From contig NZ_CP126969.1 in assembly GCF_030252165.1 (NCBI RefSeq), forward strand, positions 1,488,001 to 1,552,000: a stretch of 64,000 nucleotides of DNA, read 5' to 3'. Of the stretch, positions 1-52,958 are shown one piece after another. Every line of letters starts with the position of its first letter. The stretch's first letter is position 1. Both the position numbers and the translations under genes were made by a program. The notes beneath the pieces were generated by a model. It had not been told where the DNA came from, did no database searches, and was given only the letters and a program-made list of their open reading frames with translations. The DNA comes from Corynebacterium breve. GTDB taxonomy: Bacteria; Actinomycetota; Actinomycetes; Mycobacteriales; Mycobacteriaceae.

Positions 1-432
1 GTCGCAGCAATCGCCGAGGCGATCATCGAACCCATCGGCGTTCGCTTGGCGACGACTCCCCTGTCCCCGGATGAGCTATGCACTAGTTTGCGCGAGTTCC
101 TGCTCCATCACCGCGACGGTGCCGAAGTGGTAGCTGCTGCCATGTCACAGCCGCAATCCGCTGTGCGATTGAAAATATTTGAGGCTGTGACGTCGTCGAT
201 AAGCGAGTATTTTGACACCCAGATTCTCAGCCCCAGCGACATCGAAGCAGCAGCAACGGGCTTAACCCACCTGACCGTGGGTGCAGCCGCATTACACCAG
301 GCAGGTCTGCAGTTTGCCGAAGCGACCGGCGAGGAGTTCGACGCCGACAATGAATGGCAATCCCAGAATGCCGTCAGGTTGCTCTTAGCAGGTTTGCGAA
401 TGAAGGAACTCGAGAGCCAAAACGGTAAGTAA
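1..432 (+). CDS. TetR/AcrR-type regulator, C-terminal part (partial)
   Basis: The reading frame is open from the first base of the window to a TAA at 430-432, so the gene starts to the left and its DNA-binding domain is not visible. What remains is an all-helical, alanine-rich segment ending in QNAVRLLLAGLRMKE. This resembles the last helix of the ligand-binding and dimerisation domain of TetR-class repressors. The stop lies about 28 bases before the chosen glgX start, so the two genes may be cotranscribed, and the regulator may respond to a sugar or stress signal, but that is inference. The family call rests only on helical character and the C-terminal pattern. An exact copy of the iterated 12-mer GCTTATCGACGA (reverse strand, 193-204) lies inside this gene. 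Confidence 0.65.
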   Translation, partial: VAAIAEAIIEPIGVRLATTPLSPDELCTSLREFLLHHRDGAEVVAAAMSQPQSAVRLKIFEAVTSSISEYFDTQILSPSDIEAAATGLTHLTVGAAALHQAGLQFAEATGEEFDADNEWQSQNAVRLLLAGLRMKELESQNGK

Positions 433-459
433 TGCGATTTTCCACTAGCATTGCCAACT

Positions 460-2790
460 ATGACTAACGCGACTGCAGAAACTCCCCAGGTTTGGCCCGG
501 GGATGCCTATCCGCTCGGCTCAACCTACGACGGCGCAGGAACCAACTTCGCAATCTTTTCCAACATCGCCCACAAGGTGGAACTCTGCCTGATCGACCGC
601 GAGGAAAACGAGATCCGCGTTCCTCTGGAAGAGAAGGACAACTACGTCTGGCACGCTTACCTCCCTGGCGTTGTGCCGGGCCAGCGCTATGGATACCGCA
701 TTCATGGCCCTTGGGACCCAGCCAACGGCAAGCGTTGCGATCCAAACAAGCTTCTTGTCGATCCATACGCGCGAGCATTCGATGGCGAGTTCGACGGCGA
801 CCCATCCCTCTTCTCCTACGACGTTTTTGCCGACCCTCCGGGAAGCGGGCGCAACGAAGACGACTCGCTTGGCCACACCATGAAGTCCGTCGTTGTCAAC
901 CCGTTCTTCGACTGGGGTGACGACCGCGCTCCCAAGGTCCCAGCCCACGAAACCGTGATTTATGAAACTCACGTCAAGGGCATGACCGCCACTCACCCGG
1001 ACGTACCGGAGGAGATGCGCGGCACCTATGCCGGCATGGCGCACCCATCGGTGATCAACTACTTCAAAGATCTCGGCGTTACCTCGGTCGAGCTGATGCC
1101 GGTGCACCAGTTTCTCCAGGACGATCGCCTGCGCGATCTTGGTCTGCGCAACTACTGGGGCTACAACACCTTCGGCTTCTTTGCTCCCCAGCAGGATTAC
1201 GCTGCCGCAACCAAGCCAGGCGGCGCGGTGTCCGAATTCAAGGGCATGGTCCGCGCCTACCACGAGGCTGGAATCGAAATCATCCTCGACGTGGTGTACA
1301 ACCACACCGCCGAAGGCAACCACCTCGGCCCAACCATCGCATTCCGAGGCATCGACAACGAGGCGTACTACCGCTTGGTCGACGGCGACCGGTTCCACTA
1401 CATGGACTACACCGGCACGGGCAACTCCCTGAACGTGCGCGACCCGCACTCGCTGCAGCTCATCATGGATTCTTTGCGCTACTGGATCACAGAGATGCAC
1501 GTCGACGGCTTCCGCTTCGACTTGGCGTCCACCTTGGCGCGCGAGCTCGACGACGTCGATCGCCTTGCGACCTTCTTCGACCTGGTCCAGCAAGACCCTG
1601 TGGTGTCCCAGACAAAGCTCATCGCCGAGCCATGGGACATCGGCCACGACGGCTACCAGGTGGGCAACTTCCCAGCGCTCTGGAGCGAGTGGAACGGAAA
1701 GTACCGCGACACCATGCGCGACTTCTGGCGCGGCGAGCCTTCCACACTAGGTGAGTTCGCCTCCCGCCTGACCGGTTCTTCTGACCTGTACCAGCACAAC
1801 GGCCGCCGCCCAACCGCTTCGATCAACTTCATTACTGCTCACGATGGCTTTACGTTGAATGACCTAGTCAGCTACAACGAAAAGCACAATGAGGCGAACC
1901 ACGAAGACAATCGCGACGGCGAGTCCCACAACCGCTCCTGGAACCACGGCGTTGAAGGCCCCACCGACGATCCCGTCATCCTCGATCTGCGCGACCGTCA
2001 GCGACGCAACTTCTTGACCACTCTCTTGCTCTCCCAGGGCACCCCGATGATTTCGCACGGCGATGAGATTGGCCGCACCCAGGGCGGAAACAACAACGCC
2101 TACTGCCAGGACAGCGAAATCGCGTGGATGGATTGGGACCTACTGGAGAAGAACGCTGAGCTTCACGGCTTTACCCGCCGCCTATTGAAGATCCGTCAGC
2201 TGCACCCAGTGTTCCGCCGCCGCCGCTTCTTCGACGGAGGTCCTTTGGGTACCGACGTTCTCGATCGCGACATCGCTTGGCTTGTCCCAGACGGCCAGCT
2301 GATGACGCAGGGCGACTGGGACTTTGCCTTTGGCAAGGCCCTCATGGTCTACCTCAACGGTACCGCGATTGCAGAGTCCGACGAGCGAGGTCAGAAGATC
2401 GAGGACGATTCCTTCATCATGATGTTCAATGCTCACTACGAGGACATCGAGTTCACGATCCCTCCAAAGCACCTCGGCGCTAAGTGGCAGCTTCTCATCG
2501 ACACCACCGAGAAGACGGGCTACCCACTGGAACAGTCGGTTCACGAACCAGGTGACACCGTCACCGTCGAGTCCCGCTCTACCTTGGTACTCAAGCAGGT
2601 CGAACCGCCAATCTTCGACGAGCCCGACGACGAAGCAGAAAACGCTGAGAACGCTGAGCTTAGCGACGAAGCTCCTGTCGAAGAAGCTTCCGCCCCTGAG
2701 GCAGAGGCTCCTGCTGAGGCAGATGCTCCTGCTGAAGAAGAGGCCGCTGAAGCTGAGACACCAGCAGAGGAAGCCCAACCAGAGGAGTAA
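460..2790 (+). CDS. glgX: Glycogen debranching enzyme GlgX
   Basis: Cytoplasmic isoamylase-type GH13 enzyme that hydrolyses alpha-1,6 branches of phosphorylase-trimmed glycogen and releases maltodextrins for TreY/TreZ or degradation. An N-terminal CBM48-like region (about residues 10-150) precedes the barrel. Numbered from the ATG at 460, the catalytic residues are visible: DVVYNH, the nucleophile D354 in GFRFDLA, the acid/base E390 in IAEPWD, and H461-D462 in TAHDGF. An in-frame TTG at 451 is an alternative start; neither start has a clear ribosome binding site. The body matches the usual 700-720 residues. It is followed by an unusual tail of about 60 residues made almost only of Glu, Asp, Ala and Pro, with EAPAE-like repeats, which I do not regard as part of the standard family. 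Confidence 0.95.
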   Translation: MTNATAETPQVWPGDAYPLGSTYDGAGTNFAIFSNIAHKVELCLIDREENEIRVPLEEKDNYVWHAYLPGVVPGQRYGYRIHGPWDPANGKRCDPNKLLVDPYARAFDGEFDGDPSLFSYDVFADPPGSGRNEDDSLGHTMKSVVVNPFFDWGDDRAPKVPAHETVIYETHVKGMTATHPDVPEEMRGTYAGMAHPSVINYFKDLGVTSVELMPVHQFLQDDRLRDLGLRNYWGYNTFGFFAPQQDYAAATKPGGAVSEFKGMVRAYHEAGIEIILDVVYNHTAEGNHLGPTIAFRGIDNEAYYRLVDGDRFHYMDYTGTGNSLNVRDPHSLQLIMDSLRYWITEMHVDGFRFDLASTLARELDDVDRLATFFDLVQQDPVVSQTKLIAEPWDIGHDGYQVGNFPALWSEWNGKYRDTMRDFWRGEPSTLGEFASRLTGSSDLYQHNGRRPTASINFITAHDGFTLNDLVSYNEKHNEANHEDNRDGESHNRSWNHGVEGPTDDPVILDLRDRQRRNFLTTLLLSQGTPMISHGDEIGRTQGGNNNAYCQDSEIAWMDWDLLEKNAELHGFTRRLLKIRQLHPVFRRRRFFDGGPLGTDVLDRDIAWLVPDGQLMTQGDWDFAFGKALMVYLNGTAIAESDERGQKIEDDSFIMMFNAHYEDIEFTIPPKHLGAKWQLLIDTTEKTGYPLEQSVHEPGDTVTVESRSTLVLKQVEPPIFDEPDDEAENAENAELSDEAPVEEASAPEAEAPAEADAPAEEEAAEAETPAEEAQPEE

Positions 2791-2868: not shown

Positions 2869-4254
2869 GTGATTGCAGCTCACGGCGCATCCATCACCGT
2901 TACCAACCAAGCCATCCGCATTATCCCCTCGGATCTTGCGGCCTCGCTGCACGGTGTCCAGGCCGATATATCGATAGCGATCACCGATATCACCTCTGTG
3001 GGGCTCGTCCCTGGCGACGCTTGGGACAACAGTGTCCTGACGATCACGACTACTAAGGGTGAGACTTCGCTGAGTTTCGCGCCCAACACGTTGTCGGAGG
3101 CAGAACGCATCGCACAGTCCATTGAGGCCGCGCAACGGGGCGAAGCACCTGCAACCGATGCCACCTCGACGACAGTTTCGGGCATTCCGGGTTTCGATTT
3201 CGTGGCTTTCGACGTTGAGACCGCGAATGGTGAGTGGGGTTCGATCTGCCAAATTGGCTTAGTCCGGTTCATCGACGGCATTGCGACGGAACGCGCCTCG
3301 TGGCTGTGTACTCCCCCTCCGGGGTTGGACACCTTTGATCCCTACAATGTGGCGATCCACGGGATCACCGCCGATGCTGTCGCCGATGCCCCTTCCTTTG
3401 CCTCTCGTTTAGACCAGCTCGAGGAGTTCGTCGGCAAGCTCCCGATTGTGGCGCACAACGCGCAATTTGATGCCACCGCTTTGCGCGAAGCAGCCGTGGC
3501 TTCGAATAAGCCAGCGCCCACGATCATGTTCGCATGCACGCTGGCACAATCCCGCGCGGCGAAGTTGCACGTGGAAAACCACAAACTCCCGACTTTGGCT
3601 GAGGCTTTTGGGGTGGAGCTGCTCCAACACCACGATGCTGCAGCAGATGCCGCCGCGTGCGGTGAAATCATGGTTTTCTTGGCACAACAAGCTGGGCATT
3701 CCGGATCTGTCATGGAGTTTGTACACGCTACCGGTTTCACTCTGGGCGTGATCGAGTCGAATCGTGTGGTGCCTGTGCTGCGGGACCGTTCAGGTGCTGG
3801 TCGCGCGCTACAGGAATCCCGCGTGCAACAGCTCACCGAACAGCCCGAGAAGGTCGATGTGTCACCTGCGCCCGAGGTTTCTGGGGCAGGTACAGATCAA
3901 CCTTCTCGTCGAGGGCCCGCGCCGTGGCAGTCAGTGGCTACCCCCGATACCATCCCTGATCCTAATCCCGATGCGGATTCATCCAACCCGTTGTTCGGAC
4001 AAAACGTGACCCTGACTGGTGAGTTCGAGCCTTTTGACAAAGGAGCTCTGTGGTCTGGCATAGCCCATTTGGGCGGGCAGGTGGGCAAGAATGTGACGAA
4101 AAAGACCACAATTCTGGTCACCGGCGAATGGGCGACAATGACCTCGAAAGAAAAGCGCGCCCGCGAGTTGATTGACAAGGGCCAAGCTATTCAGATTTGG
4201 CCGGCAGACAAGCTGCTGTCGGTGCTCGGGCTCGATGAGGAACCACCTTTCTAG
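2869..4254 (+). CDS. DEDDh exonuclease with PH-like N-terminus and BRCT domain
   Basis: The central domain is a DnaQ/epsilon-type 3'-5' exonuclease. The DEDDh residues are visible: D115 and E117 in FDVETANG, D201 in NAQFD, and H255 with D260 in HDAAADAA. About 95 N-terminal residues form a beta-rich segment that looks like a small PH-type domain. Residues of about 372-461 form a BRCT module (VTLTGEFEPFDKG, LGGQVGKNVTKKTTILV). A variable Pro/Ser-rich linker joins the last two. The GTG start at 2869 follows AAGGAG (2854-2859) with good spacing; an ATG at 2861 is out of frame and stops at once. BRCT domains occur in NAD-dependent ligase and in some actinobacterial exonucleases, so a repair or proofreading role is likely, but the substrate cannot be deduced. 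Confidence 0.85.
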   Translation: MIAAHGASITVTNQAIRIIPSDLAASLHGVQADISIAITDITSVGLVPGDAWDNSVLTITTTKGETSLSFAPNTLSEAERIAQSIEAAQRGEAPATDATSTTVSGIPGFDFVAFDVETANGEWGSICQIGLVRFIDGIATERASWLCTPPPGLDTFDPYNVAIHGITADAVADAPSFASRLDQLEEFVGKLPIVAHNAQFDATALREAAVASNKPAPTIMFACTLAQSRAAKLHVENHKLPTLAEAFGVELLQHHDAAADAAACGEIMVFLAQQAGHSGSVMEFVHATGFTLGVIESNRVVPVLRDRSGAGRALQESRVQQLTEQPEKVDVSPAPEVSGAGTDQPSRRGPAPWQSVATPDTIPDPNPDADSSNPLFGQNVTLTGEFEPFDKGALWSGIAHLGGQVGKNVTKKTTILVTGEWATMTSKEKRARELIDKGQAIQIWPADKLLSVLGLDEEPPF

Positions 4255-5087: not shown

Positions 5088-7610
5088 ATGCGCCGTCCCA
5101 TCACGTCTACCTACCGTTTGCAGCTACGTGGACCACAGGCAGACCCGGGTGGACGCGCTTTCGGGTTCGCAGAAGCTGAAGCACAGATCCCGTACTTGAA
5201 GGAACTGGGCGTCTCTCACTTGTACCTCTCCCCGATCCTCACCGCGCTTCCGGAATCGAACCACAACTACGATGTGATCGACCCGACTGAGATCAACCCA
5301 GAACTCGGTGGCATCGACGGGCTGCGTTCCCTCGCCAAAGCGGCACACGAGGAAGGCATGGGACTCATCGTCGATATCGTTCCAAACCACCTCGGCGTCG
5401 ATCAACCAAAACTGAACTCTTGGTGGTGGGATGTTCTGAAAAACGGCAAGGACTCCCACTTTGAGGCCTACTTTGATATTGACTGGCATGAGGACAACGG
5501 CGCAGGTGGCAAACTTGGCATGCCAGTTCTCGGCGCTGAGGGCGACGAGGACAAGTTGGAACTTCGCGTCGACGAAGAGCTCGACGAGATCGTCCTTGCC
5601 TACTACGACAACGTCTTCCCCGTAGCCCCCGACACTTGCGCCGGTGTAGACGACGACCCGATCGAAGTGTACGAGAAGCAGTCATACCGTCTGATGTACT
5701 GGCGTGACGGAGTCATTTCTTATCGACGATTCTTTTCCGTCAACGGGCTCGCCGGCATTCGCCAAGAAGATCCGTTGGTCTTTGAGCACTCCCACCGCGT
5801 GCTGCGCGAGATCATCGCTGAGGATCTCATCGACGGTGTGCGTGTTGACCATCCAGATGGACTTTCAGATCCTTTCGGTTATCTCAACCGACTACGTAGC
5901 CTGATTGGACCTGACCGCTGGCTGGTCGCCGAAAAGATCCTTGGCGTGACCGAGCCTCTCGATCCCCGCCTGGCGGTCGATGGCACCACCGGCTACGATG
6001 CATTACGCGAGTTTGACGGAGTCTTTGTCTCGCGCGATGCCGAAGACCACATGAGCATGCTGGCACTTCAGCAAACCGGTTCAACTTGGGACGAGCGCGC
6101 TATCGAAGCGACGGAACACCACCTCAAGCGTGAGGTTGCGCGCACCGAACTCGCCGCAGAAATCCGCAGGCTCGCCCGCGCCATCCGCCGTGACAACTTC
6201 TCCACGGCTGGCGCTTTTGTCTCCGACGAGGACCTCACTGCCACCATCGTGGACTTGGTGGCAGCAATGCCTGTCTATCGCGCCGACTACATCTCTTTGT
6301 CGCGCACCACCTCCACGGTTGTGGCGGATATGTCGCGCCGATTCCCTTCTCGTCGTGACGCACTGGATTTGATCGTTGCAGCTTTGCTGGCCAACGGCGA
6401 AGCGAAGATTCGTTTCGCGCAAGTATGTGGTGCCGTCATGGCCAAAGGCGTCGAGGACACGACCTTCTACCGCGCGGCACGACTCGTCGCATTGCAAGAG
6501 GTTGGCGGTGCACCGGGTCGCTTTGGTGTGTCGGCAGCAGAATTCCACCTCTTGCAGCAGGAACGCCAAACACTGTGGCCACACACCATGACCACCTTGT
6601 CCACGCACGACACCAAACGCAGCGAGGACACCCGCGCCCGCATCATCGAGCTCACGGAGTACCCCAACGCTTTTTCGGAACTGGTCAACCAAATCAGCGC
6701 CGTGGTTCCTTCCCCAGATCAGGCGACTGGCCACTTCCTCCTGCAGAACATTTTGGGCGTCTGGCCTGAAGACGGCGAGATTACCGACACTTTGCGGCAG
6801 CGACTGCACGACTACGCGATCAAGGCTGTACGTGAGGCAGGAGTACACACCGATTGGGTCGATCAAGACCAAGGATTTGAGCAGGCCATCATCGACTGGA
6901 TCGATGCTCTTCTCGACGGCCCTGCGACCTCCCAGATCACGGAGTTCGTCGCCAAGCTTCATCACGGCGCTGTTCAGGTGTCGCTGGGTCGCAAGATGCT
7001 GCAGATGATCGGCCCGGGTATCCCTGATACTTACCAGGGCCAGGAGTTCTTCGATTACTCGCTGGTTGATCCCGATAACCGGCGTTTCGTCGACTACACC
7101 GCGCGCAGCCAATGTCTAGAGCAACTCGACGAGGAAGGTGCGTTGGAACGCATTGTCCAAGAAGCTCGCGAAGCGATGGCCGAATCCGCCGGGCACGATC
7201 CTTACCCACACTTGAACCACTGGGCTGACCGTGCCAAGCAGGCTGTGGTGCACAAGGCGATGAAGCTTCGTCGTCAGTTGCCGGATACTTTCCTGCGCGG
7301 TGAGCACCAGGCCGTGTTCGGCGTAGGACCGGCAGAATCTCACCTGGTGGGCATCGCTCGTGGCGATGCTGACACCCCAGGAACCGAAGGCATCGGCGTG
7401 ATCGCGCTAGCTATCCGACGACCATTGAACCTGGACGACAATGGTGGTTGGCGTGGCACCACCGTCACCCTGCCGGAAGGCGACTGGACCGATCAGCTCA
7501 CCGGGCGCACATTCAGTGGCACGGTCTCGGTGTCTGAGATTCTGGAGTATCTGCCGACAGCGCTTCTGGTGGCGGATCGCTTGACGGTACTTCCGAACGT
7601 TAGCGTGTAG
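5088..7610 (+). CDS. treY: Maltooligosyl trehalose synthase TreY
   Basis: Cytoplasmic GH13 isomerase that converts the reducing-end alpha-1,4 bond of maltodextrins to an alpha,alpha-1,1 bond, giving maltooligosyl trehalose for TreZ. The opening SRITSTYRLQL-like segment (here ITSTYRLQLRG) is typical. The GH13 residues are visible: D96 in DIVPNH, nucleophile D254 in GVRVDHPDGL, acid/base E282 in LVAEKIL and D508 in STHDTKRSED. At 840 residues it is slightly longer than many homologues but complete. The ATG follows a strong GCGAGGAGG site. The alarmone synthetase starts 20 bases downstream, so the two may form one transcript. Trehalose in this group is both a compatible solute and the carrier of mycolates. 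Confidence 0.96.
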   Translation: MRRPITSTYRLQLRGPQADPGGRAFGFAEAEAQIPYLKELGVSHLYLSPILTALPESNHNYDVIDPTEINPELGGIDGLRSLAKAAHEEGMGLIVDIVPNHLGVDQPKLNSWWWDVLKNGKDSHFEAYFDIDWHEDNGAGGKLGMPVLGAEGDEDKLELRVDEELDEIVLAYYDNVFPVAPDTCAGVDDDPIEVYEKQSYRLMYWRDGVISYRRFFSVNGLAGIRQEDPLVFEHSHRVLREIIAEDLIDGVRVDHPDGLSDPFGYLNRLRSLIGPDRWLVAEKILGVTEPLDPRLAVDGTTGYDALREFDGVFVSRDAEDHMSMLALQQTGSTWDERAIEATEHHLKREVARTELAAEIRRLARAIRRDNFSTAGAFVSDEDLTATIVDLVAAMPVYRADYISLSRTTSTVVADMSRRFPSRRDALDLIVAALLANGEAKIRFAQVCGAVMAKGVEDTTFYRAARLVALQEVGGAPGRFGVSAAEFHLLQQERQTLWPHTMTTLSTHDTKRSEDTRARIIELTEYPNAFSELVNQISAVVPSPDQATGHFLLQNILGVWPEDGEITDTLRQRLHDYAIKAVREAGVHTDWVDQDQGFEQAIIDWIDALLDGPATSQITEFVAKLHHGAVQVSLGRKMLQMIGPGIPDTYQGQEFFDYSLVDPDNRRFVDYTARSQCLEQLDEEGALERIVQEAREAMAESAGHDPYPHLNHWADRAKQAVVHKAMKLRRQLPDTFLRGEHQAVFGVGPAESHLVGIARGDADTPGTEGIGVIALAIRRPLNLDDNGGWRGTTVTLPEGDWTDQLTGRTFSGTVSVSEILEYLPTALLVADRLTVLPNVSV

Positions 7611-7630: not shown

Positions 7631-8644
7631 ATGAGCGACAACACTATCGCCCGGCTGGGCTCCACCTACCACGAGTGGGTCAAAGCCCACCCGGACGCAG
7701 CCGACGATTTCCAAAAGGCCATCGAAGACACACTTTCCGACGCGGGTATCAACTACGACCGCGTCGTCGCACGCGTGAAGTCTTGGAAATCCCTCAAACA
7801 CAAAGCGCGTAAGACCACCGACAAAGGCGCACCGGTATATCCCGATCCGTGGAGCGATATCCATGACAAGATCGGCGTGCGCATTACCGTTTTGCACTCC
7901 ACCGACATCCCCGTGGTCCTGGACATTTTGGCGCACTCCTTCGATGTGATTCGCAGCATCGACAAGGCCTTGGAAACCAAGGTGTCCGGCGGATTCGGCT
8001 ACGGCTCCCACCACCTTGTGGTCACGGTGAACGAGGAATCGGAAGGCTTGCAAGACTATGTGGGAATCGATTTTGAGATCCAAGTCCGCACCGTCTTGCA
8101 GCACGCATGGGCCGAATTCGAGCACGACATTCGATACAAGCGTGGCCAAGGCGACATTGACCCACAGGTGGATCGCTCCTTCACTTTGGCCGCTGGGCTC
8201 ATCGAACTTGCCGATCAGCAGTTCGACCAAATCGCAGCGTTGCACGACCCAGAAACCCTGCGCCCGACCGACGAAGAAGTCGAGCTCACCGCCGAGACAC
8301 TTCCGGGTATTCTCGCGATGCTGGTGGGTACTCGCTTCCCTCGCTCGCGTTTTGAGCACTATCGCTGGCTTGAAGAGCTCCTAGTGCTCAACAACATCAC
8401 CACAGTCAGCCAGCTCACTGACTTGCTCAACGAGGCAGATATCGAGGCAGTCTCGTCCGCGATGAATTACCGCTTCGTGCCCGGCCAAGTACGCATTATC
8501 GACGACCTCCTGCTCAACCGATTCGGACGGGAGCACATCGAACGCACCGCCAAGACCGGCACTAATCCTGCGCAGCGGAAAGAGCGCCTCAAGCGACGTC
8601 TGAAACTCTTGCGGTCGGCGGGGAAATCGTCGCTAAGCGACTAG
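7631..8644 (+). CDS. Small alarmone synthetase (RelA/SpoT synthetase domain)
   Basis: Predicted (p)ppGpp synthetase without a hydrolase domain. The RelA_SpoT nucleotidyltransferase fold covers about residues 30-175: SWKSLKHKA, the D79-KIG-V-R84 motif, GYGSHHLVV, and E149 in FEIQVRTVLQHAWAEFEHD, a conserved position that catalysis needs. No HD hydrolase domain and no TGS/ACT regulatory domains are present. The C-terminal 150 residues are helical and end in a basic segment (RKERLKRRLKLLR) that I do not recognise; it could mediate oligomerisation or RNA contact. Corynebacteria are known to carry short RelS/RelP-like synthetases besides the long Rel, and some are inactive, so activity is not certain. 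The stop overlaps the convergent S4 gene by four bases (CTAG). Confidence 0.85.
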   Translation: MSDNTIARLGSTYHEWVKAHPDAADDFQKAIEDTLSDAGINYDRVVARVKSWKSLKHKARKTTDKGAPVYPDPWSDIHDKIGVRITVLHSTDIPVVLDILAHSFDVIRSIDKALETKVSGGFGYGSHHLVVTVNEESEGLQDYVGIDFEIQVRTVLQHAWAEFEHDIRYKRGQGDIDPQVDRSFTLAAGLIELADQQFDQIAALHDPETLRPTDEEVELTAETLPGILAMLVGTRFPRSRFEHYRWLEELLVLNNITTVSQLTDLLNEADIEAVSSAMNYRFVPGQVRIIDDLLLNRFGREHIERTAKTGTNPAQRKERLKRRLKLLRSAGKSSLSD

Positions 8645-9957: not shown

Positions 9958-10010
9958 TGATTGCAAATCTTACCTGGCAGGGTGTCGAGTTTTTCCATAG
10001 CCTGGGAGCC

Positions 10011-11786
10011 ATGCCTGCTTTTGAACCATATTCAGTATGGGCTCCAATCGCCCACGATGTCCGTCTCCGAGTCTCCTCTGGCGAGTCACCAGAGGGATCC
10101 TTTGAAGGCCCCACCGATGGCGACACCCAAACCATCCAGCTGCACCGTGACGCACAGCGCTCTGGATGGTGGACGTGCGACACCATCGCACAACCAGGAG
10201 ATCGCTACGGTTACGAAGTCTTTGACGGCACCGCATGGTCCAAGCCGCTGCCCGATCCACGTACCACATCTCAGCCCGACGGTGTCCATGGCCGCTCGCA
10301 GGTGACCGACCCAGATTTCGAATGGTCCGATCAGCTGTGGACAGGACGTGGTCTTGCCGGCCAGGTGATTTACGAGCTCCACGTTGGTACGTTCACTCCG
10401 GAAGGAACGTTTGCTGGGGTCGTCGAAAAGCTTGATTACCTGCTAGAACTTGGCGTGACCACAATCGAGCTCATGCCCGTGCAGCCTTTCGGCGGCGAGC
10501 GCAACTGGGGCTACGACGGGGTCGACTGGTTCGCCGTGCAAGAAAGCTACGGCGGCGTGCAGGGCCTGAAAGAGCTTGTCGACGCCGCGCATAACAAGGG
10601 CATTGGCGTGATCATGGATGTGGTGTATAACCACTTCGGCGCCGACGGCAACTACAACGGATTCTTCGGCCCCTACACCGCCGGCGGCTCCACGGGCTGG
10701 GGCGAAGTGGTCAATATCTCCACGCACGGCTCTGACGAGGTGCGTCGCTTCATTTTGGACTCGGCATGCCAGTGGCTAGACGAATTCCATATCGACGGCC
10801 TGCGCCTTGATGCCGTGCACTCGTTGGACGATCGTGGCGCATTTTCCATCATGGAACAGATCCAGTTTGAGGCCGACGAGGTCGAAGCGCGCACCGGCAT
10901 CCCGCGCGTGATCATCGCGGAGAGCGACCTGAACGATCCTCGTTTGATCACCCCGACCGCGAACGGTGGCTACGGCTTGGCTGGACAGTGGGTTGACGAC
11001 ATCCACCACTGCCTTCACACCGTGGTCTCCGGCGAAAATCATGCATACTACGAGGATTTCGGCACAATTGAGTTGCTTGCCGATACGTTGCGTCATGGCT
11101 TCCGCTTCCGCAACAATTGGTCGGGGTTCCGCGGGCGGACGCATGGTCGTGAGCTCGACCTTTCCACTACCCCTCCGTGGCAGCTAGTCACCTACACCAC
11201 CACACACGACCAAACCGGTAACCGTGCCCGAGGCGATCGCCCATCACAGAATCTCACTCCGGCGCAGCAGGTACTCAAGGCGGCAGTGATCTACTTCGCG
11301 CCGTTTACCCCGATGCTGTTCATGGGTGAGGAATACGGCGCGTTGACCCCGTTCCCATTCTTCTGCTCGCATACCGACGATGAACTTAACCGCCTGACCC
11401 GCGAGGGCCGCTTTCGCGAGTTCGCGCGCTCGGGTTGGGAGCCGCACGAGGTCCCGGATCCCTCCGCGCCTGAAACCTTTGAATCGGCCAAGTTGGATTG
11501 GGAATTCACGGACGAGCAGAAGGCAATTTTCGACGCGTACTCGACTCTGCTGCAGCTTCGCCGCGACCTTGAACTGGGACGATCCGACCTACGCGATCTG
11601 CAAGTCGAGCACGGGCCGAACTGGCTTACCATGGGCTACGACGACGTTGTCCTGGCGGTGAACTTCAGCTCCACCGAGATCAGCCTGCCGGTGGGTGGGG
11701 ACTTGGTGTACTCGTTTACATCACCAACCGTCACCGAATCCTCCACCACCTTGGATGAGTGGGGATTCGCGATCATCGCGCGCTAA
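10011..11786 (+). CDS. treZ: Malto-oligosyltrehalose trehalohydrolase TreZ
   Basis: GH13 enzyme that releases trehalose from the maltooligosyl trehalose made by TreY. The N-terminal CBM48-like domain starts with EPYSVWAPIAHDVRL, and the barrel carries nucleophile D267 in DGLRLDAVHSL, acid/base E304 in IIAESDLND, and H399-D400 in TTHDQTGNRARGDR. I chose the ATG at 10011 because family members start just before the SVWAP motif. The longer open frame from 9945 would overlap the yigZ start. The length (591 residues) is normal. It is separated from treY by five genes but completes the same pathway. Confidence 0.95.
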   Translation: MPAFEPYSVWAPIAHDVRLRVSSGESPEGSFEGPTDGDTQTIQLHRDAQRSGWWTCDTIAQPGDRYGYEVFDGTAWSKPLPDPRTTSQPDGVHGRSQVTDPDFEWSDQLWTGRGLAGQVIYELHVGTFTPEGTFAGVVEKLDYLLELGVTTIELMPVQPFGGERNWGYDGVDWFAVQESYGGVQGLKELVDAAHNKGIGVIMDVVYNHFGADGNYNGFFGPYTAGGSTGWGEVVNISTHGSDEVRRFILDSACQWLDEFHIDGLRLDAVHSLDDRGAFSIMEQIQFEADEVEARTGIPRVIIAESDLNDPRLITPTANGGYGLAGQWVDDIHHCLHTVVSGENHAYYEDFGTIELLADTLRHGFRFRNNWSGFRGRTHGRELDLSTTPPWQLVTYTTTHDQTGNRARGDRPSQNLTPAQQVLKAAVIYFAPFTPMLFMGEEYGALTPFPFFCSHTDDELNRLTREGRFREFARSGWEPHEVPDPSAPETFESAKLDWEFTDEQKAIFDAYSTLLQLRRDLELGRSDLRDLQVEHGPNWLTMGYDDVVLAVNFSSTEISLPVGGDLVYSFTSPTVTESSTTLDEWGFAIIAR

Positions 11787-13133: not shown

Positions 13134-13145
13134 GCTTATCGACGA
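13134..13145 (+). repeat. Intergenic copy of the iterated 12-mer GCTTATCGACGA
   Basis: One of eight exact copies I counted in the window; the others, at 193, 18821, 22875, 28345, 41551, 44167 and 52583 (either strand), lie inside genes. This one is in the divergent space between ilvA and the secreted protein gene, so coding constraint does not explain it. See the separate finding for variants. Confidence 0.6.
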
Positions 13146-38655: not shown

Positions 38656-38747
38656 CCTGCGAGTATACACTGCGGCTTTGCTTGACGACGATTCCCCGGC
38701 CAGCCTGTTGGGCTCACGGAGGCTCAAGTCGGCTTAGGCAACAACAA

Positions 38748-40127: not shown

Positions 40128-40415
40128 TTAGAAGACGATTCGGATAATGGCACCGAGAATAGACAACGCGAAGAACAACACCAGAACGCTCAGATCCAGT
40201 GCCACTCCTCCCATCCGCATCGGCGGGATGATTCGTCGCAAAGCCTTAATCGGTGGGTCCGTGACAACAAAGAAGAACTCGGCAATCACCATAAACCAGC
40301 TCGGCGGTGCGAACTGACGGGAAAAAGACTGCACCATTTCAATCAGAATGCGCACGATAACGATGAGGGCGTAAATCCTCACGATCGCGTATAAAATCGC
40401 TCCAAGCATGCTCAC
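40128..40415 (-). CDS. YggT family membrane protein
   Basis: A 95-residue integral membrane protein with two hydrophobic helices joined by a conserved segment (FFFVVTDPPIKALRRIIPP), the YggT signature. The start shown is GTG 40415; ATG 40409 two codons later is equally possible. YggT proteins occur in the sepF-yggT-divIVA order in many Gram-positive bacteria, which suggests a role in division or osmotic adaptation, but no reaction is known. It follows sepF on the same strand, separated by a hairpin. Confidence 0.9.
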   Translation of the reverse strand: MSMLGAILYAIVRIYALIVIVRILIEMVQSFSRQFAPPSWFMVIAEFFFVVTDPPIKALRRIIPPMRMGGVALDLSVLVLFFALSILGAIIRIVF

Positions 40416-41073: not shown

Positions 41074-41793
41074 TTAGCCTACGTGGCGCGCGCCAAGCAC
41101 TCCGGTTCCGACACGCACGATATCGCTTCCTTCAGCAATTGCTTTTTCGAAATCCCCCGACATTCCCGCCGAGAGTTTCATCGACCGGCCGAGGCTTTCA
41201 CCGAAGCGGTCCGCAAGCTCTCTCGCCTGCGCAAACACCTCCACGGGGTCGGTGTCTAAAGGCGGTACAACCATGATTCCGTCGAATCGCAAATGCTCTG
41301 TCTCTTCGACTAATGCAGCCAATTCATCCACATCATCAAGTGGGACTCCCCCGCGCGTGGGATCGTTATCCATTGACACTTGAATCAGACTTGGCAATTG
41401 GCCCGCTTCGCGGTCGCCTCGCTCGATCGCCAGCCCCACCCCTCGGTTGAGCCCCTCGGCCAACCGCACGGTATCTAGGGAGTGCACCTCATGTGCCCAA
41501 CGCGCAACAGCATTGGCCTTCTTGGTCTGGATTTGGCCGATCATCGCAATGCTTATCGACGACTCCCCGCGCGCTTTCAACTCTTCCGCTTTCGCACGGG
41601 CTTCCTGTTCGCGGTTTTCTCCCACCAAGTCCACACCTAGCTGACCTAGTATTTCAATGTCCTCCACCGGGTGAAATTTGGTGACCGGTAGCAGCTTTAC
41701 GCTTCCAGCCGTTCTGCCAGCAGCCTTTTCTGCGGCGCGGATGGTTTCCATCACTGAGTTCAGGTTGGCGGAGATGTCCTCGAAGCGGGTCAT
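41074..41793 (-). CDS. YggS family PLP homeostasis protein
   Basis: A 239-residue PLP-binding protein of the YggS/PROSC/PLPBP family, which balances vitamin B6 and keto acid pools and has no known enzyme activity of its own. The PLP lysine is in VKLLPVTKFHPVEDI, and the barrel motifs FDGIMVVPP and SAGMSGDFEKAIAEGSDIVRVGTGVLGAR are typical. It starts two bases before the end of the pgeF gene region on the same strand and is probably translated from the ftsZ-pgeF-yggS-sepF transcript. An exact 12-mer copy is at 41551. Confidence 0.93.
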   Translation of the reverse strand: MTRFEDISANLNSVMETIRAAEKAAGRTAGSVKLLPVTKFHPVEDIEILGQLGVDLVGENREQEARAKAEELKARGESSISIAMIGQIQTKKANAVARWAHEVHSLDTVRLAEGLNRGVGLAIERGDREAGQLPSLIQVSMDNDPTRGGVPLDDVDELAALVEETEHLRFDGIMVVPPLDTDPVEVFAQARELADRFGESLGRSMKLSAGMSGDFEKAIAEGSDIVRVGTGVLGARHVG

Positions 41794-42552: not shown

Positions 42553-43773
42553 TTAGCGCATGAAGCTTGGCACGTCCAAGTCGTCGTCATCGTCGCGGCG
42601 ACGTCGGTTGCCGCGGTCGGAGCGAGTCTCCGACGGGGTGAACAGGCCAGTGCTGCGTGGCTCCTGGCGGTAGCGCACAGGCTCTTCTACCTCTGCGACT
42701 TCCTCTTCGCGGGCGCGCTCGTCGAAAAGCGATCCCCGAGAAGGCGCTGGTGTAGCAGCCTCGGACTGCGGCGCCGCTGGCTCAGCTTCGACATCAGGTT
42801 GCGCGTTGCCTGTTGGCAAGGCGTTTGCCTTCTCGTCGAAACCGGTAGCGATAATGGTCACGCGGACCTCGTCGCCCAGGTTGTCATCGATGATGGTGCC
42901 GAAGATGATGTTGGCATCGTCGTCAGCCTTCTCCTCAACGATGGATGCTGCGTTGTTCACTTCCATCAGGCCAAGATCGGAACCACCGGCAACGGAAATC
43001 AGTACGCCCTTGGCGCCTTCCATGGTGGATTCTAAAAGTGGCGAATTGATCGCCTGAAGGGTTGCATCCATGACGCGGTTGTCGCCGCGGGAAGAGCCAA
43101 CACCCATCAGTGCGGAACCAGCGTCTGCCATGACGGAGCGCACATCGGCAAAGTCGACGTTGATCATTCCTGGGATCGTGATCAGGTTGGTGATGCCCTG
43201 CACACCGTTGTACAAAACCTCGTCGGCCGCACGGAAGGCTTCCATCATGGACAGCTCCTGGTCGCCAAGCTGCAGGAGGCGGTCGTTAGGAATGACGATG
43301 ACGGTATCGCAGACTTCCTTAAGGGTCTCGATGCCAGCCATTGCCTGACGGGTACGACGCTTGCCCTCGAAGGAGAACGGGCGGGTGACAACGCCGATGG
43401 TCAGCGCCCCCATCTTCTTTGCAATGCCAGCGACAACTGGAGCAGCGCCGGTACCCGTGCCACCGCCCTCGCCTGCGGTAACGAAGACCATATCCGAGCC
43501 CTTCAGCGACTCTTCGATCTCACTTTTGTGGTCTTCTGCGGAGGTACGACCCACGTCAGGATTAGCGCCTGCACCAAGGCCACGTGTTGCTTCACGGCCG
43601 ATATCGAGCTTGGTGTCGGCATCGGTGAACAGTAGCGCTTGGGAGTCAGTGTTGATGGCAACGAACTCGACGCCCTTGAGGCCCTCTTCGATCATGCGGT
43701 TCACCGCATTGACTCCGCCGCCGCCGACACCGACGACGCGGATCATGGCGAGGTAGTTGTTCGGAGATGTCAT
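42553..43773 (-). CDS. ftsZ: Cell division protein FtsZ
   Basis: Tubulin-like GTPase that builds the division ring. Motifs: the N-terminal [19 protein letters not shown], the tubulin signature [15 protein letters not shown], the T7 loop [11 protein letters not shown], and the C-terminal conserved peptide DLDVPSFMR that SepF binds. A disordered linker of about 80 residues joins the GTPase core to it. The length of 406 residues is normal. It is the first gene after a 195-base gap from ftsQ that probably contains its own promoter on the minus strand, since ftsZ is made in excess. Confidence 0.98.
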
Positions 43774-43968: not shown

Positions 43969-44661
43969 CTAGCGCACGCCAATCATGGCAGGGTTCGAAA
44001 CATCAAACTCCTGGCCCTCGCGTTCGAGCACCGTGTCTAGCGCGATGGCCTTGTCGTGGTTGTCCTCCGACGCGCCCCATGTGACACGACGCCCATCATC
44101 GATCAAGACTTCGTAGTTAAACTGGTCACGAACTTCCAACGCGGTCACCCTGCGACGTGTTTCTTCGCTTATCGACGAAGCGATGTCCGTTGCGTTCTTC
44201 CGCGCCTGTTCTTCGCCACTTCCGTCGCCGGTGATTTCGATCGCTTCAGCTGGTGGCTCGGCAACGACAAAGTCTTCGCCCTCCGCATTAATCAAATGCG
44301 TACCGTCGGCCTCCGAGAGAAAAGCAACGGCTTCGTGTTCCGTGATATTGATATCCAAGCTCGATGGCCAGCCACGTGACACAGTCACCGATTTCACCCA
44401 TGGCATTCCCGCCACGCCGGAAGCGGCCGCCCCGACATCGACCTGCGCTAGGATCTCTCCCTCGGCGACTCCGGCTGCCTCCACCACCTGCTCCTGGGGC
44501 AGATGGTCGTTACCGGTCACCTTGTATTCGCGCACGGTAAAAAGTGGCGTGAACATGACAACCACGGCCACAACGGCAACTAGTGCGAGTGCGATCGCGG
44601 CTGCAATCCAGGCCTTCTTGCGCGAGGGGCGAACGGGTTCGGAACGGGCAACGGTGGACAT
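43969..44661 (-). CDS. ftsQ: Cell division protein FtsQ
   Basis: Bitopic membrane protein of the divisome. Residues of about 18-40 form the single transmembrane helix, followed by a POTRA domain (FTVREYKVTGNDHLPQEQVVEAAGV) and the FtsQ domain (SWPSSLDINITEHEAVAFL, VTALEVRDQFNYEVLIDDGRRV). The length of 230 residues is usual for corynebacteria. It lies five bases downstream of murC, as in most dcw clusters. An exact 12-mer copy is at 44167. Confidence 0.95.
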   Translation of the reverse strand: MSTVARSEPVRPSRKKAWIAAAIALALVAVVAVVVMFTPLFTVREYKVTGNDHLPQEQVVEAAGVAEGEILAQVDVGAAASGVAGMPWVKSVTVSRGWPSSLDINITEHEAVAFLSEADGTHLINAEGEDFVVAEPPAEAIEITGDGSGEEQARKNATDIASSISEETRRRVTALEVRDQFNYEVLIDDGRRVTWGASEDNHDKAIALDTVLEREGQEFDVSNPAMIGVR

Positions 44662-44666: not shown

Positions 44667-46139
44667 TTACTTCTCCGCCAAGTTGTTCAGGATTTCGTCG
44701 GCAAGCATGGTGACAGAGCCTGCGCCCATCGTGAGGACTAGATCGCCCGCGTTGACCAGCTCTCGAACTACTAGTGGAGCTTGGAGAAATTCCTTCTCAA
44801 ACCTCACCTCGGTTGTTTCTGTGTTGATGCGCTCGGTGATGATCCGGGAGTCAACGCCTTCCACCGGCGCTTCGCGTGCGCCGAAGATGTCGAGGACTAC
44901 GGCGGCGTCGGCAAGCGAAAGCGTCTCAGCAAACTCAGCAGCGAACTCGATGGTGCGCGAGTACAGGTGGGGCTGGAAGCACACAACAACGCGGGAGCCG
45001 TTACCCTCTGCGTCAACTTTGGCGCGGGCAGCAGTAAGAACGGCTTCGACCTCGGTCGGGTGATGCGCATAATCGTCGTAGACACGAGTACCAGCGTAGG
45101 GGCCTTCGGCGACCTCCCCGCGATATTCAAAGCGACGGCGCACACCGGTAAATTCGCTCAAGCCCTCGACCATGCGCATCGGCTCGGCGTCGGCAAGGAC
45201 GCCGGCAAGAAGTGCGGCGGCCGAATTAAGCACCATGTGGCGACCAGGAATCTGCAGTTGGTACGTCAACGAGGCAGCAGGGGCTACCGTGTTTAGGCTC
45301 ACAGTGACTTCGGTTGCCTCGGCAGTAACCTCCTCATCAGTGATCACAACCCCAGGAGTGATCTCGCGGTGGCGCTCACACGCCTCCAGAGTGCCGTAGC
45401 CCAGCACAGCCACGCCTCGCTCCTGCGCGCGCTTGCCGCAGGCGGCGGCTTCGTCGTCATCAAGGCAGACAACAAGGTGGCCGTCCTCGGTGACGCGATC
45501 GGCGAACTCGTCAAAGACCTGGAAGTACGCCTCGCGCGTGCCAAAGTAATCCAGGTGATCCGGCTCGATGTTGGTGATCACCGCAACGTCCGGCTTGTAG
45601 CGCAGCAGCGACGCATCGGACTCGTCGGCCTCAGCCACAAAGGCGGAGCCCGAGCCGTGGTGTGCATTTGTTCCTGCGCGGTTGAGCTGCCCACCGATAG
45701 CAAACGATGGGTCCTCGCCTGCCTGTTGCAACGCGACGACCGCCATCGAGGTAGTAGACGTCTTTCCGTGCGTACCCGCGAAGAGTACTTGTGTGTAGCC
45801 CTCCATCAGCTCGCCAAGCAAGTCGGAACGTCGAATGACCGGGATGTTCTCCTGCGCGGCGCGCACGAGTTCGGGATTGTCCTTCGGGATGGCTGCGAAG
45901 CTGGTCACAACGACAGTCGGCAGCTCACCTGCGAGTTCAAGATTAGCGGCATCGTGACCGATAGCGATCTTTGCGCCTTGCCCCATCAGGGCACGCACCG
46001 GGCGGGAGTCCTTGACGTCGGAGCCGGTGACCACGCTGCCGCGGTCGAGGAGAATGCGCGCGACTCCCGACATGCCCGAGCCACCAATACCAATCAGATG
46101 AACTCGCGACAGGTCGATGTCAGTGCCGGTGGTAGTCAC
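44667..46139 (-). CDS. murC: UDP-N-acetylmuramate-L-alanine ligase MurC
   Basis: ATP-dependent cytoplasmic ligase adding L-Ala to UDP-MurNAc. Motifs: [19 protein letters not shown] (nucleotide/UDP site), ATP loop [13 protein letters not shown], and [17 protein letters not shown] choose GTG 46139 because AAGGAG (46149-46154) lies nine bases upstream; the longer frame from a TTG at 46166 would swallow that site. The product has 490 residues. A heptamer tandem repeat lies between the murG stop and this gene. Confidence 0.97.
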
Positions 46140-47356: not shown

Positions 47357-48880
47357 TTAGCGCCGATCTTGGTTGCGTCCACCACGAGGGTTGTGACGTC
47401 GTTCGCTACGGTTCGAAGGTACCCGACCGGAACGCGCGGCAGGGGCCCGACGAGGGCGCTCCGGCTTCACTGTCTCACGTGCAGCACCGCGACGCTTGTC
47501 GACGACGCGCTCGCCCTTCGTAGGCCGCGGGCGGACAGTGACTGGCTTGCCAAACCGGTCTGGCTGTTCGTCGTTACGCTTCTCAGCACGCTCAGCTACC
47601 TGGACTGGGGCCTTGGGCTCTGGGATGCCCAACGCACGATCGAACAATGGGCGACCGTGGTTCTGCATCGAAGAAACAGCATCTGGCTCATGGCGGGCAA
47701 CGGATGCAAGCAGGCCCATCGAAGTCAGCGTGATAATGGCCGAGGTACCGCCCGCAGAGATCAGGGGCAGCTGAATACCAGTCACTGGCAGCAGACCGAC
47801 GACGTATCCGATGTTGATGAATGCCTGGACAACCACTCCAGCAGTCAATGTGCCCGCGAGCAACGCTTGATACTGGTTCGCTGCGCGACGGGCTGTCCGG
47901 AAACCGAACCAGCCGAGACCGAGGAACAGCAAGATGACAAGCGAGCCACCCCATAGCCCCAGTTCCTCGCCGATCACGGCGAAAATGAAGTCGTTTTTCG
48001 CTTCAGGGAGGTAGAACCACTTCGCCCGCGATTGGCCCAAACCGACGCCGAAAAATGATCCATCGGCCAAGGAGAGGAACCCCTGGTACGACTGAAAAGC
48101 AGCGCCTTGGGTATCTTCAAAGTTACCGACGAAGGCATCAAAAAACGTGTGGAAACGGGCCGAACGGAATCCGCCTGCCGCCATCAAAAGAAAAACAGCA
48201 ACAGCACCGAATGCCGCGACCACCGCAATGAACACCCATGACACACCGGCAAACAACAACACAAACCCGACAACAATGGCGAAGGCGATGGCCATGCCGA
48301 TGTCACCCTGAAGTGCGATGAGGATGATGCACAAGCTTGCGACAAGGATAAAGGGACCAAAGCCGTTCTTCCAGCCGAGGCTTCGTGGGTCTTTGTTCGC
48401 CAACAAGCTTGCGCCCCAGATGGCGATTGCCACCTTTGCCACTTCGGAGGGCTGGAGCTGGAAGCCTGGCAACGCGATCCAGGACTGAGAACCTACAGAA
48501 TCACGGCCGGTACCGATGCCGGGGATCAAGACGGCGATCAACAAGACGAACGAGATCAACATGATCCAAGGAGCCCAGAGACGAACACGTTCAGGCGAGA
48601 CTTTGAGTGCGGCCCAAAAACCAACTAATCCGATTGCGACCATGATGGCTTGTTTGACTGGCTGCGCCCAAACTGTCTGATCGTCGATTACTGACCATGT
48701 CATGGACGAGCTCATCACCATGATTACGCCTAAAAAGGCAAGCACTAAGACGATCGAGCGAATTGCGATGTAGTCGAGCAAGGGTTGCTGATTCATCCAG
48801 TGGGCGGCTCGCTCAATCCCCCGCGCCACGCCCGATCGTGCCGGGGCTGGCTTCGTCGAACGGTCGCGAGTTGCAGTCAT
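47357..48880 (-). CDS. ftsW: Septal peptidoglycan polymerase FtsW
   Basis: SEDS-family glycosyltransferase polymerising lipid II with FtsI. About ten transmembrane helices; SEDS motifs include SWIALPGFQLQPSEVAKVAI, LQGDIGMAIAFA, GVGLGQSRAKWFYLPEAKNDFIFAVIGEELG and TGIQLPLISAGGTS. The C-terminal 95 residues form a very basic Arg/Pro-rich cytoplasmic tail (RPRRAPAARSGR and similar), longer than in E. coli and common in actinobacteria. The total length is 507 residues. It lies between murD and murG in the normal order. Confidence 0.96.
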   Translation of the reverse strand: MTATRDRSTKPAPARSGVARGIERAAHWMNQQPLLDYIAIRSIVLVLAFLGVIMVMSSSMTWSVIDDQTVWAQPVKQAIMVAIGLVGFWAALKVSPERVRLWAPWIMLISFVLLIAVLIPGIGTGRDSVGSQSWIALPGFQLQPSEVAKVAIAIWGASLLANKDPRSLGWKNGFGPFILVASLCIILIALQGDIGMAIAFAIVVGFVLLFAGVSWVFIAVVAAFGAVAVFLLMAAGGFRSARFHTFFDAFVGNFEDTQGAAFQSYQGFLSLADGSFFGVGLGQSRAKWFYLPEAKNDFIFAVIGEELGLWGGSLVILLFLGLGWFGFRTARRAANQYQALLAGTLTAGVVVQAFINIGYVVGLLPVTGIQLPLISAGGTSAIITLTSMGLLASVARHEPDAVSSMQNHGRPLFDRALGIPEPKAPVQVAERAEKRNDEQPDRFGKPVTVRPRPTKGERVVDKRRGAARETVKPERPRRAPAARSGRVPSNRSERRHNPRGGRNQDRR

Positions 48881-51413: not shown

Positions 51414-51419
51414 AACGGC

Positions 51420-52958
51420 CTACCTTGTGTTCCTTTTCTCATCCAGTAGCGCTTCAGCTACCCGCCACAGCCCCAACGCATTGGAGGCCTTGACCAATAC
51501 AACGTCTTTGTCTTTCCTAGCGTGCCAGTTCTCTTCCCCGGCAGGCGCCGTAGAAAGGATACCCCGCACGACATCGGTTGCATCCTCGACATCGTGTGCC
51601 AGTTTGGTAACAATCCCTCGTGAGATCGCTTGGCGTGCCAAGGCTTCTTCGACTTCACCCTGCCCTACGACGACAAGATCGCTAACCCGGTACCGGGCAA
51701 GCTCGTCGCCTAAGGCTCGATGTTGTTCCAGGGAATCATTTCCAAGTTCGCCCATCTCGCCAAGCACGGCGATGGAACGAGCTCCCGGGCGCCCCGCTGC
51801 GGTATAACCTAATGCCGCGATGCCGGCGCGCATCGATTCCGGATTGGCATTGTAGGCGTCGTTGATGATGGTGACTCCGTCTGCGCGAGTGTTCACGTCC
51901 ATGCGGTTTGCCGATGTATTGCGGGCTGCAGATAATGCCTCTGCAACCTCCGCCGCAGTCATGCCGGCTTGGATCCCCACTGCTGCCGCTGCTAGCGCAT
52001 TGGACACCTGATGGGCGCCGAATACGTTGAGGCGCACATTCTGTGGCGGGTTGTTCGGGGTGTGCATCACGAAAGAAGCACGCGCGACGTCGTCAAGCTC
52101 GATGTCGGTGGCGTAAAAGTCCGCGTTACGCACGTGCGGAGTGGCCGCCGAATAGAATACGACCTTCGCCTTGGTGCGGGTTGCCATCGAAGCGACAAAT
52201 GGATCGTCCGCGTTCAAGATGGCCAGGCCACCATCGGCAGCGTTAGGTAGGGCTTCCACAAGCTCGCCCTTGGCCTGGGCGATATTCTCGCGAGAGCCGA
52301 ATTCACCCAAGTGTGCCGAGCCAACATTGAGGACGACACCCACGGTGGGCGGGGCGATCGTCGCCAAGTGTGCAATATGGCCGATACCACGCGCCGACAT
52401 CTCAGCCACGAGGAATTTCGTCTGCTCAGAGCAGCGCAGCGCGGTATACGGGTGCCCGATCTCGTTGTTAAAAGAGCCCGGAGGCGCCACTGTCTGACCC
52501 TGGCGCGACAGCACAGCCGCGATCAGATCTTTGGTCGAGGTCTTGCCTGCGGAGCCGGTCACACCAGTAATCATGAGTCCATGCTTATCGACGAGCTCCC
52601 GCGACACGTAAGCCGCGAGCTTGCTCATCGCTTGGACGACTGCGGTAACGGAACCGTCAGGGTCATTAGTGGCAAGGTCAGAGTTGTCATTCTCGTTTCG
52701 TTCAGCCGGTGGGACGATAACAGCAGGTACGCCTACCTCTCGTGCCGCGAGCACGCCGACAGCCCCCTGCTCCACGGCCTTGTGGGCGAAATCGTGGCCG
52801 TCGACCTTTGCGCCAGCAAGAGCTACGAAAAGTCCGCCTTCGGATACCTTGCGAGAGTCAAACTCAACAAAACCAGTGACTTTGGCATGCGGATCTTCAG
52901 CGTCGGCAACGTAACCGCCAACGATGTCGGCGATGTCGGTTAAGCCAAGCGGAATCAT
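51420..52958 (-). CDS. murF: UDP-MurNAc-tripeptide D-Ala-D-Ala ligase MurF
   Basis: Adds D-Ala-D-Ala to the UDP-MurNAc tripeptide, completing the pentapeptide. Motifs: the N-terminal FDSRKVSEGGLFVAL, ATP loop ITGVTGSAGKTSTKDLIA, NNEIGHPYTAL, NVGSAHLGEFGSRENIAQAKGEL, and INDAYNANPESM. The length of 512 residues is typical for corynebacteria. It lies 18 bases downstream of murE. An exact copy of the iterated 12-mer is at 52583-52594. Confidence 0.97.
   Translation of the reverse strand: MIPLGLTDIADIVGGYVADAEDPHAKVTGFVEFDSRKVSEGGLFVALAGAKVDGHDFAHKAVEQGAVGVLAAREVGVPAVIVPPAERNENDNSDLATNDPDGSVTAVVQAMSKLAAYVSRELVDKHGLMITGVTGSAGKTSTKDLIAAVLSRQGQTVAPPGSFNNEIGHPYTALRCSEQTKFLVAEMSARGIGHIAHLATIAPPTVGVVLNVGSAHLGEFGSRENIAQAKGELVEALPNAADGGLAILNADDPFVASMATRTKAKVVFYSAATPHVRNADFYATDIELDDVARASFVMHTPNNPPQNVRLNVFGAHQVSNALAAAAVGIQAGMTAAEVAEALSAARNTSANRMDVNTRADGVTIINDAYNANPESMRAGIAALGYTAAGRPGARSIAVLGEMGELGNDSLEQHRALGDELARYRVSDLVVVGQGEVEEALARQAISRGIVTKLAHDVEDATDVVRGILSTAPAGEENWHARKDKDVVLVKASNALGLWRVAEALLDEKRNTR

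Follow-up and report, generated by a model that had tools for sequence, protein, structure and literature searches.

In this study, we ask why a ten-base motif, TCGTCG-N2-AAGC, recurs so densely in a stretch of the Corynebacterium breve chromosome. The stretch, hereafter called the window, comprises 64,000 nucleotides (positions 1,488,001–1,552,000 of a single-contig genome of 2,567,397 bases; GCF_030252165.1, contig NZ_CP126969.1). A sequence-only reading of this DNA had singled out a repeated 12-mer, GCTTATCGACGA, with a wider family around it, and had offered an uptake signal, an architecture or segregation signal, or a nucleoid protein site as possible readings. We propose that TCGTCG-N2-AAGC is probably a DNA uptake sequence, a tag for the DNA of close kin that is spelled in different dialects. 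This prediction is based on the copy number and sharpness of the motif, on the finding that the signal resides at the DNA level, on its balance between strands, and on the existence of dialects and their grouping by clade.

All eight exact 12-mers and four variants with G for A (16707, 26978, 47494 and 62945) were found where the sequence-only reading had placed them, as were the GC, TC and AA centres that it listed; its estimate of about 30 copies of TCGTCG-N2-AAGC was too low, as the window holds 37, against 0.32 in dinucleotide shuffles (maximum 2 in 100 shuffles). In the whole genome, the exact 12-mer is present in 254 copies (128 and 126 on the two strands) and TCGTCGNNAAGC in 1,515 copies (748 and 767), or one per 1.7 kb, while the reversed controls gave 0 and 15 copies, respectively. 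For finer analysis we used a 464 kb sample made up of the window and twenty 20-kb stretches at 130 kb spacing. The 12-mer occurs 39 times in this sample, where an order-5 Markov model predicts 0.8, and words of the motif top the over-representation list at each word length from 8 to 12. In the sample, the 12-mer thus exceeds the Markov expectation and the ten-base motif, as shown below, the codon-shuffle expectation, these being the comparisons that the sequence-only reading had asked for, and the claim stands.

The motif is sharply defined. In the sample, 246 copies are perfect, and all 30 one-base variants sum to 187, none being found more than 27 times. The spacer is exactly two bases long, gaps of 0, 1, 3, 4 and 5 yielding 5, 5, 9, 2 and 16 copies, and the two centre bases are loose, with AT (39) and AC (31) the commonest and GG (1) the rarest. 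In the 5′ arm, G is preferred at positions -9, -4, -3, -1 and 0 and C at -7, T is rare at -6 (12 of 245), and downstream of the core a purine is common. The same bias in the 12 upstream bases (G 0.40–0.49, C 0.20–0.27) was seen in noncoding sites (n=54) and in all six frame classes, three of which have at least 20 sites. Because of this arm and the sharp preferences in the core, what is recognised is likely an asymmetric stretch of DNA, about 24 bp long, in which a G-rich 5′ arm is followed by TCGTCG, two loose bases, AAGC and often a purine.

A motif of this kind could in principle reflect codon or protein-sequence bias or a signal read in RNA, and codon bias had been suggested as a cause of part of the wider family. 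This idea draws on the distribution of sites among reading frames: all six frames are used, but 109 of the 192 coding sites in the sample lie in one antisense frame, where they commonly code for xLxDD/E. However, synonymous codon shuffling of the genes left 11.0 ± 3.0 sites (maximum 21 in 50 shuffles) in place of the real 192, a 17-fold difference, and the coding sites are found in both senses (70 sense, 122 antisense). In addition, 52 sites lie between genes, against 0.2 in mononucleotide shuffles of noncoding DNA, and 2 lie across a border; genes were called with our own codon-score script, which assigned 83.5% of the sequence as coding and missed some genes, so that some of these noncoding sites may be genic. 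The earlier statement that copies occur in both orientations, in different frames, in genes and in noncoding DNA, and that coding alone does not explain them, therefore holds, all six frames being used in the sample, whereas codon bias fails as a cause of the wider family. The motif is a DNA-level feature, and we give an origin in codons, proteins or RNA next to no chance.

Short asymmetric motifs of very high copy number with a G-rich 5′ arm would also be expected of a Chi-like recombination hot spot, or of a replication-oriented architecture signal such as the FtsK-orienting polar sequences (KOPS) or architecture-imparting sequences (AIMS). Such signals should be biased with respect to replication. 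The GC skew of the sampled stretches switches sign near 2.3 and 1.1 Mb, and on the two replication arms the sites are divided between the strands 52/63 and 61/70, which gives 122 leading-strand and 124 lagging-strand sites (Fisher p 0.90). The skew check proposed by the sequence-only reading hence revealed no bias, and the replication-direction bias that an architecture or segregation signal predicts is absent. The same balance is seen more widely, as 140 Corynebacterium genomes with at least 100 copies together hold 22,186 forward and 22,409 reverse sites. Taken with the extent of about 24 bp and the lineage-specific spellings described below, this makes a Chi, KOPS or AIMS type of signal very unlikely.

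The spacing of sites is near exponential, and no position bias of sites within genes was seen. Eleven of the 12 pairs closer than 60 bp are inverted, the number of such pairs being just mildly above random (12 vs 7.9). One sampled stretch (L021, 18040–18330) contains a tandem array with a 93-bp period and four TCGTCGGTAAGC sites in one orientation, which might be taken to mean that the copies are remnants of a dispersed mobile repeat of the repetitive extragenic palindrome (REP) or miniature inverted-repeat transposable element (MITE) type. However, apart from that array and the overlapping pairs, the flanks past the short arm look unrelated, and the centre dinucleotide varies, so that we hold a mobile origin to be extremely improbable.

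We next turn to the distribution of the motif. In 138 of 242 Corynebacterium genomes its copy number is 100 or more and no less than five times the control, and 59 of the 242 hold at least 300 copies, while 61 are within twice the control. The comparison beyond the genus was a family-wide draw of 301 genomes, of which 271 belong to 30 other genera; judged by eye, these are near control, at most about 2.6-fold above it. Among the genomes compared, TCGTCG-N2-AAGC is confined to Corynebacterium. Eleven further genomes were searched one by one: more copies were counted in C. bouchesdurhonense (170 copies), C. tuscaniense (331), C. gallinarum (326), C. lactis (386), C. ulceribovis (135), C. sp. p3-SID1145 (396) and a metagenome-assembled genome (MAG; 95), and fewer in C. 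suicordis (7), C. sp. ACRQK (8), C. sp. HMSC08A12 (8) and Ca. C. intestinavium (18).

Stretches from 20 other genomes, given here by our own G numbers, were searched for enriched words of their own. In four genomes of near 70% GC (G055, G070, G069 and G237), the core is unchanged except that its first T is relaxed; in 80 kb of G070, the first base is T 11, C 19, G 10 and A 5 times, and any other single variant is found at most 4 times. In G075 the centre is mostly AG. Three genomes that are seemingly motif-free (G001, G096 and G106) carry CATCG-N2-AAGC, mostly with an NC centre and with a G-rich arm. This second spelling, CATCG-NC-AAGC, reaches at least 300 copies in 14 of the 242 genomes (307–754 copies, control at most 11). 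Thirteen of these 14 have at most 45 TCGTCG copies, the fourteenth, G023, having 136 TCGTCG and 487 CATCG copies, and conversely the 59 genomes with at least 300 TCGTCG copies hold at most 53 CATCG-NC-AAGC. The two main spellings are therefore mutually exclusive in all but one genome rich in either. In a search of 66 genomes, CGCGNCGTCAT was found 661 times in G012 (control 9), the next genome having 64 copies, and GGTGGCGTCGA 215 times in G048 (control 5), 130 times in G213, 124 times in G230 and 105 times in G075. Since many of the other 62 genomes hold 30–60 copies of GGTGGCGTCGA, with reversed controls of 0–10 that are a poor background, this is the least certain dialect. All dialects have a CRTC core in common, and all except that of G012 also have a G-rich arm.

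A protein tree of 20 genomes was built from three genes that lie within the pilus locus or next to it, the first of which is missing from one genome and the third from two. Eight of the ten CGTCG-type genomes fall into one clade (support 0.93), the remaining two, G005 and G055, pair elsewhere (0.885), and the three CATCG genomes group with the motif-free G042 (split support 0.999). In this tree, the dialects group by clade. It seems reasonably likely, though less so than the uptake reading for TCGTCG-N2-AAGC itself, that these dialects belong to one genus-wide system. This would be the third independent invention of its kind after Neisseria and Haemophilus and the first in Gram-positive bacteria with mycolic acids; it would use Tad/Flp and ComEA/ComEC, and its dialect groups would exchange DNA mainly within themselves. 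As part of this wider proposal we envisage at least three dialects, probably four: CGTCG-N2-AAGC (T-first, relaxed or AG-centred), CATCG-NC-AAGC, CGCGNCGTCAT and perhaps GGTGGCGTCGA.

The lineage-specific spellings also bear on the main rival to an uptake sequence, namely that the motif is bound by a nucleoid-associated or chromosome-organising protein and is kept by selection for chromosome structure. The high density along the chromosome and the occurrence in both orientations would be consistent with such a site. However, this explanation does not predict several mutually exclusive spellings in one genus, nor the absence of the motif from many relatives, nor the turnover of individual sites. 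For the last point, the division-gene region of the window was compared with eleven named loci, not all of which align at each site. The eight coding sites in this region are mostly not common to other species, and four are each common to one other species. In a class I tRNA synthetase gene (35236–38427), the site at 35756..35767 (+ strand, centre GT) is present in none of the 10 species aligned there and that at 36536..36547 (+, centre CC) is exact in one of 10, a MAG. The site in ftsZ (42553–43773) at 42719..42730 (+, centre AA) is common to C. bouchesdurhonense, the one in murC at 44695..44706 (+, centre GC) to C. lactis, and the exact 12-mer at 52583..52594 (-, centre AT, within 51420–52958) to C. 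tuscaniense; the last codes for V-D-K, where most other species differ. In a MurC scan the nearest named relatives were Corynebacterium species, C. bouchesdurhonense being first with 76% identity. Orthologous sites thus turn over between species rather than serve a fixed gene function, and conservation, which the sequence-only reading had wished to see examined in related species, is found for the motif, which is widespread in the genus, and mostly not for its individual sites. We regard a nucleoid-protein site as improbable. Of the three readings originally offered, an uptake signal fits best, since it agrees with how dense and sharp the motif is, with its balance between strands, with its flanking arm and with its lineage-specific spellings.

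A tag for kin DNA may be compared with the systems known from other bacteria. The DNA uptake sequences (DUS) of the Neisseriaceae are likewise motifs of 10–12 bp with hundreds to thousands of copies on both strands, and their dialects differ from clade to clade in line with phylogeny while retaining a conserved core (PMC3630211); they also occur as closely spaced inverted pairs (PMC2397512) and, within genes, more often antisense (PMC2346458). In contrast to DUS, the Corynebacterium sequence is unrelated, has a bipartite core with two free bases and a G-rich arm, and belongs to a high-GC Gram-positive host; the DUS receptor in Neisseria is ComP, whereas here both a receptor and uptake are predicted. 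The Corynebacterium sequence is also unrelated to the Hin and Apl types of the uptake signal sequence (USS) of the Pasteurellaceae (PMC1626085), again with uptake here being predicted, and while USS have AT-rich flanks, the flank here is G-rich at the 5′ end and mainly one side is biased. A third comparison is with the actinobacterium Micrococcus luteus, in which transformation requires Flp/tad pili and comEA/comEC (PMC4322843). It belongs to the same phylum and has the same kinds of gene, comEA, comEC and tad; unlike here, two tad clusters are required (PMC4322843), and the term "uptake sequence" is absent from the main text of that paper (PMC4322843).

Genes of these kinds are present in all or nearly all of the Corynebacterium genomes searched for them. 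A ComEC match was obtained in 241 of 242 genomes, a ComEA match in all 242 (231 above the cut-off), and a Tad-type ATPase in all 60 chosen genomes, of which 30 are rich in TCGTCG (at least 312 copies) and 30 poor (at most 25 copies, seven of them with at least 100 CATCG copies). The sole genome without a ComEC match, G185, is 90% complete and has 98 CATCG-NC-AAGC and 19 TCGTCG copies. In the genome studied here, comEC (545 aa) is followed by holA, and comEA lies 7 kb off with thiamine genes in between; these, on the other strand, encode a ThiD-type kinase and a ThiO-type oxidase (1712001–1732000 stretch, 9714–19216). comEC and comEA are adjacent in several further Corynebacterium genomes, G001 among them. 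The ComEC protein exceeds the cut-offs for both the ComEC_N-term model and the Pfam Competence domain, and ComEA exceeds that for Pfam HHH_3. The Tad-type cluster encodes a Ssd/TadZ-type protein, an ATPase, a T2SSF protein, a 67-aa protein with a Flp-like ...GMSTIEY site (Pfam DUF4244) and two TadE-like proteins. As motif-poor genomes have the same genes, the Tad and Com genes indicate that uptake is possible and do not point to what reads the motif.

A weaker Tad ATPase match (E above 1e-47, mostly to a partial profile) was found in 16 of the 30 TCGTCG-poor and in none of the 30 rich genomes, and in none of the seven with CATCG. We considered and dropped it as a correlate of the motif, as the four genomes with such a match that are in the tree, G007, G048, G142 and G241, form one clade and do possess Tad-type clusters. 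Among these four, tadB and tadC seem to be fused (one frame of 349–380 aa), and the N-terminus of the TadE-like pilin is unlike that of most other genomes. ComEC was also matched twice in G014, G090 and G229 and has an internal stop in G123, as does the ComEA match of the motif-poor G007; these could be either broken competence genes or draft errors.

Several observations weigh against an uptake sequence. At the thresholds used, 87 of the 242 genomes match neither main dialect, and the word search revealed no clear motif in G042, G131, G142, G018, G011, G206 and G241 (in G241 it gave just DnaA-box-like repeats) and weak signals in G007, G053 and G120. Whether a genome has ComEC, ComEA or the Tad ATPase does not track the motif, these genes being universal or nearly so and found also in motif-poor genomes, including G042 inside the CATCG group, and no motif-specific Tad pilin was seen across the pilin genes of 20 genomes. 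The ComEC protein of the genome studied here falls below the ComEC/Rec2 cut-off (77 of 190 bits), its middle part being matched and the end of the model unmatched; since it matches part of the full model, we lowered our confidence in the uptake reading slightly. ComEA is narrowly under one cut-off (52.3 of 53.1), and one of the two TadE-like proteins is below its own. In the motif-rich G090, which is C. lactis to judge by its copy counts, ComEC is split into two matches and the gene could be broken. Codon-atypical genes, in which recently acquired DNA might be sought, show no depletion, the site density being 0.56 per kb in the lowest fifth and 0.34 in the highest. No report of natural competence in Corynebacterium was found among the matches listed in a search of titles and abstract openings in the open-licence literature, and both preferential uptake and a receptor are steps that we infer.

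Data on foreign DNA include eight Corynebacterium phage records (470,401 bases), which contain 7 CGTCGNNAAGC sites; four of the seven look like one site common to four related phages. When the sample is divided into 2-kb windows, the tenth of them with the lowest GC is depleted, with 11 of the 246 sites (p 0.003). A plasmid search with one window gene gave no match.

The remaining sites of the window are as follows. The other seven exact 12-mers (centre AT) lie at 193..204, 18821..18832 and 22875..22886 on the + strand and at 13134..13145 (noncoding in the gene calls), 28345..28356, 41551..41562 and 44167..44178 on the - strand. Centre AC is found at 16707..16718 (-), 26978..26989 (+, noncoding in the gene calls), 47494..47505 (-) and 62945..62956 (+), and centre GC at 3428..3439, 22485..22496, 31576..31587 and 60474..60485, all +. 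Sites with centre TC are 16775..16786 (+), which is opposite in orientation to 16707 at a distance of 68 bp, 22842..22853 (-), 24921..24932 (+) and 38680..38691 (-, noncoding in the gene calls). Centre AA occurs at 10420..10431 (+) and 63777..63788 (-), CC at 44..55 (-) and 6946..6957 (+), CT at 2658..2669 (-) and 8627..8638 (+), TT at 13862..13873 and 31308..31319 (both -), and CA at 34407..34418 and 40233..40244 (both +), with single sites for AG (29575..29586, -), CG (62353..62364, -) and TG (62975..62986, -). The inverted pairs 22842/22875 and 62945/62975, 33 and 30 bp apart, could form hairpins, and by analogy with Neisseria these may double as terminators. A second enriched 12-mer family, around TGCTGTTGCAAA(GT), is present in 10–11 copies in the 464 kb sample; given a putative resemblance to the ends of the IS6 family, it may be an insertion sequence end.

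If TCGTCG-N2-AAGC is indeed an uptake sequence, a predicted surface receptor would recognise the tag on free DNA, and DNA of kin would be taken up in preference to foreign DNA. Corynebacteria have an envelope of the mycolic-acid type. A Tad pilin or a ComEA-like protein may bind the tag, the pilus would pull the DNA through the mycolic-acid outer layer, and ComEA and ComEC would pass one strand into the cell. Recombination would then swap resident alleles for tagged ones, so that tags accumulate by biased import, and different spellings would act as exchange barriers between lineages.

No paper on this Corynebacterium motif was found among the matches listed in the open-licence literature, which was searched by titles and abstract openings and does not include preprints and most subscription papers. 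Abundant uptake sequences have so far been described for two Gram-negative families. If the genus-wide proposal is correct, most of the genus would be naturally transformable. An actinobacterial genus would then have converged strikingly on a system with dialects whose sequence is unrelated, and this would suggest that the same self-tagging evolves in cells behind a mycolic-acid outer barrier. The natural transformability of Corynebacterium also becomes testable, and if the proposal is true, transforming DNA should carry TCGTCGATAAGC together with the G-rich arm.

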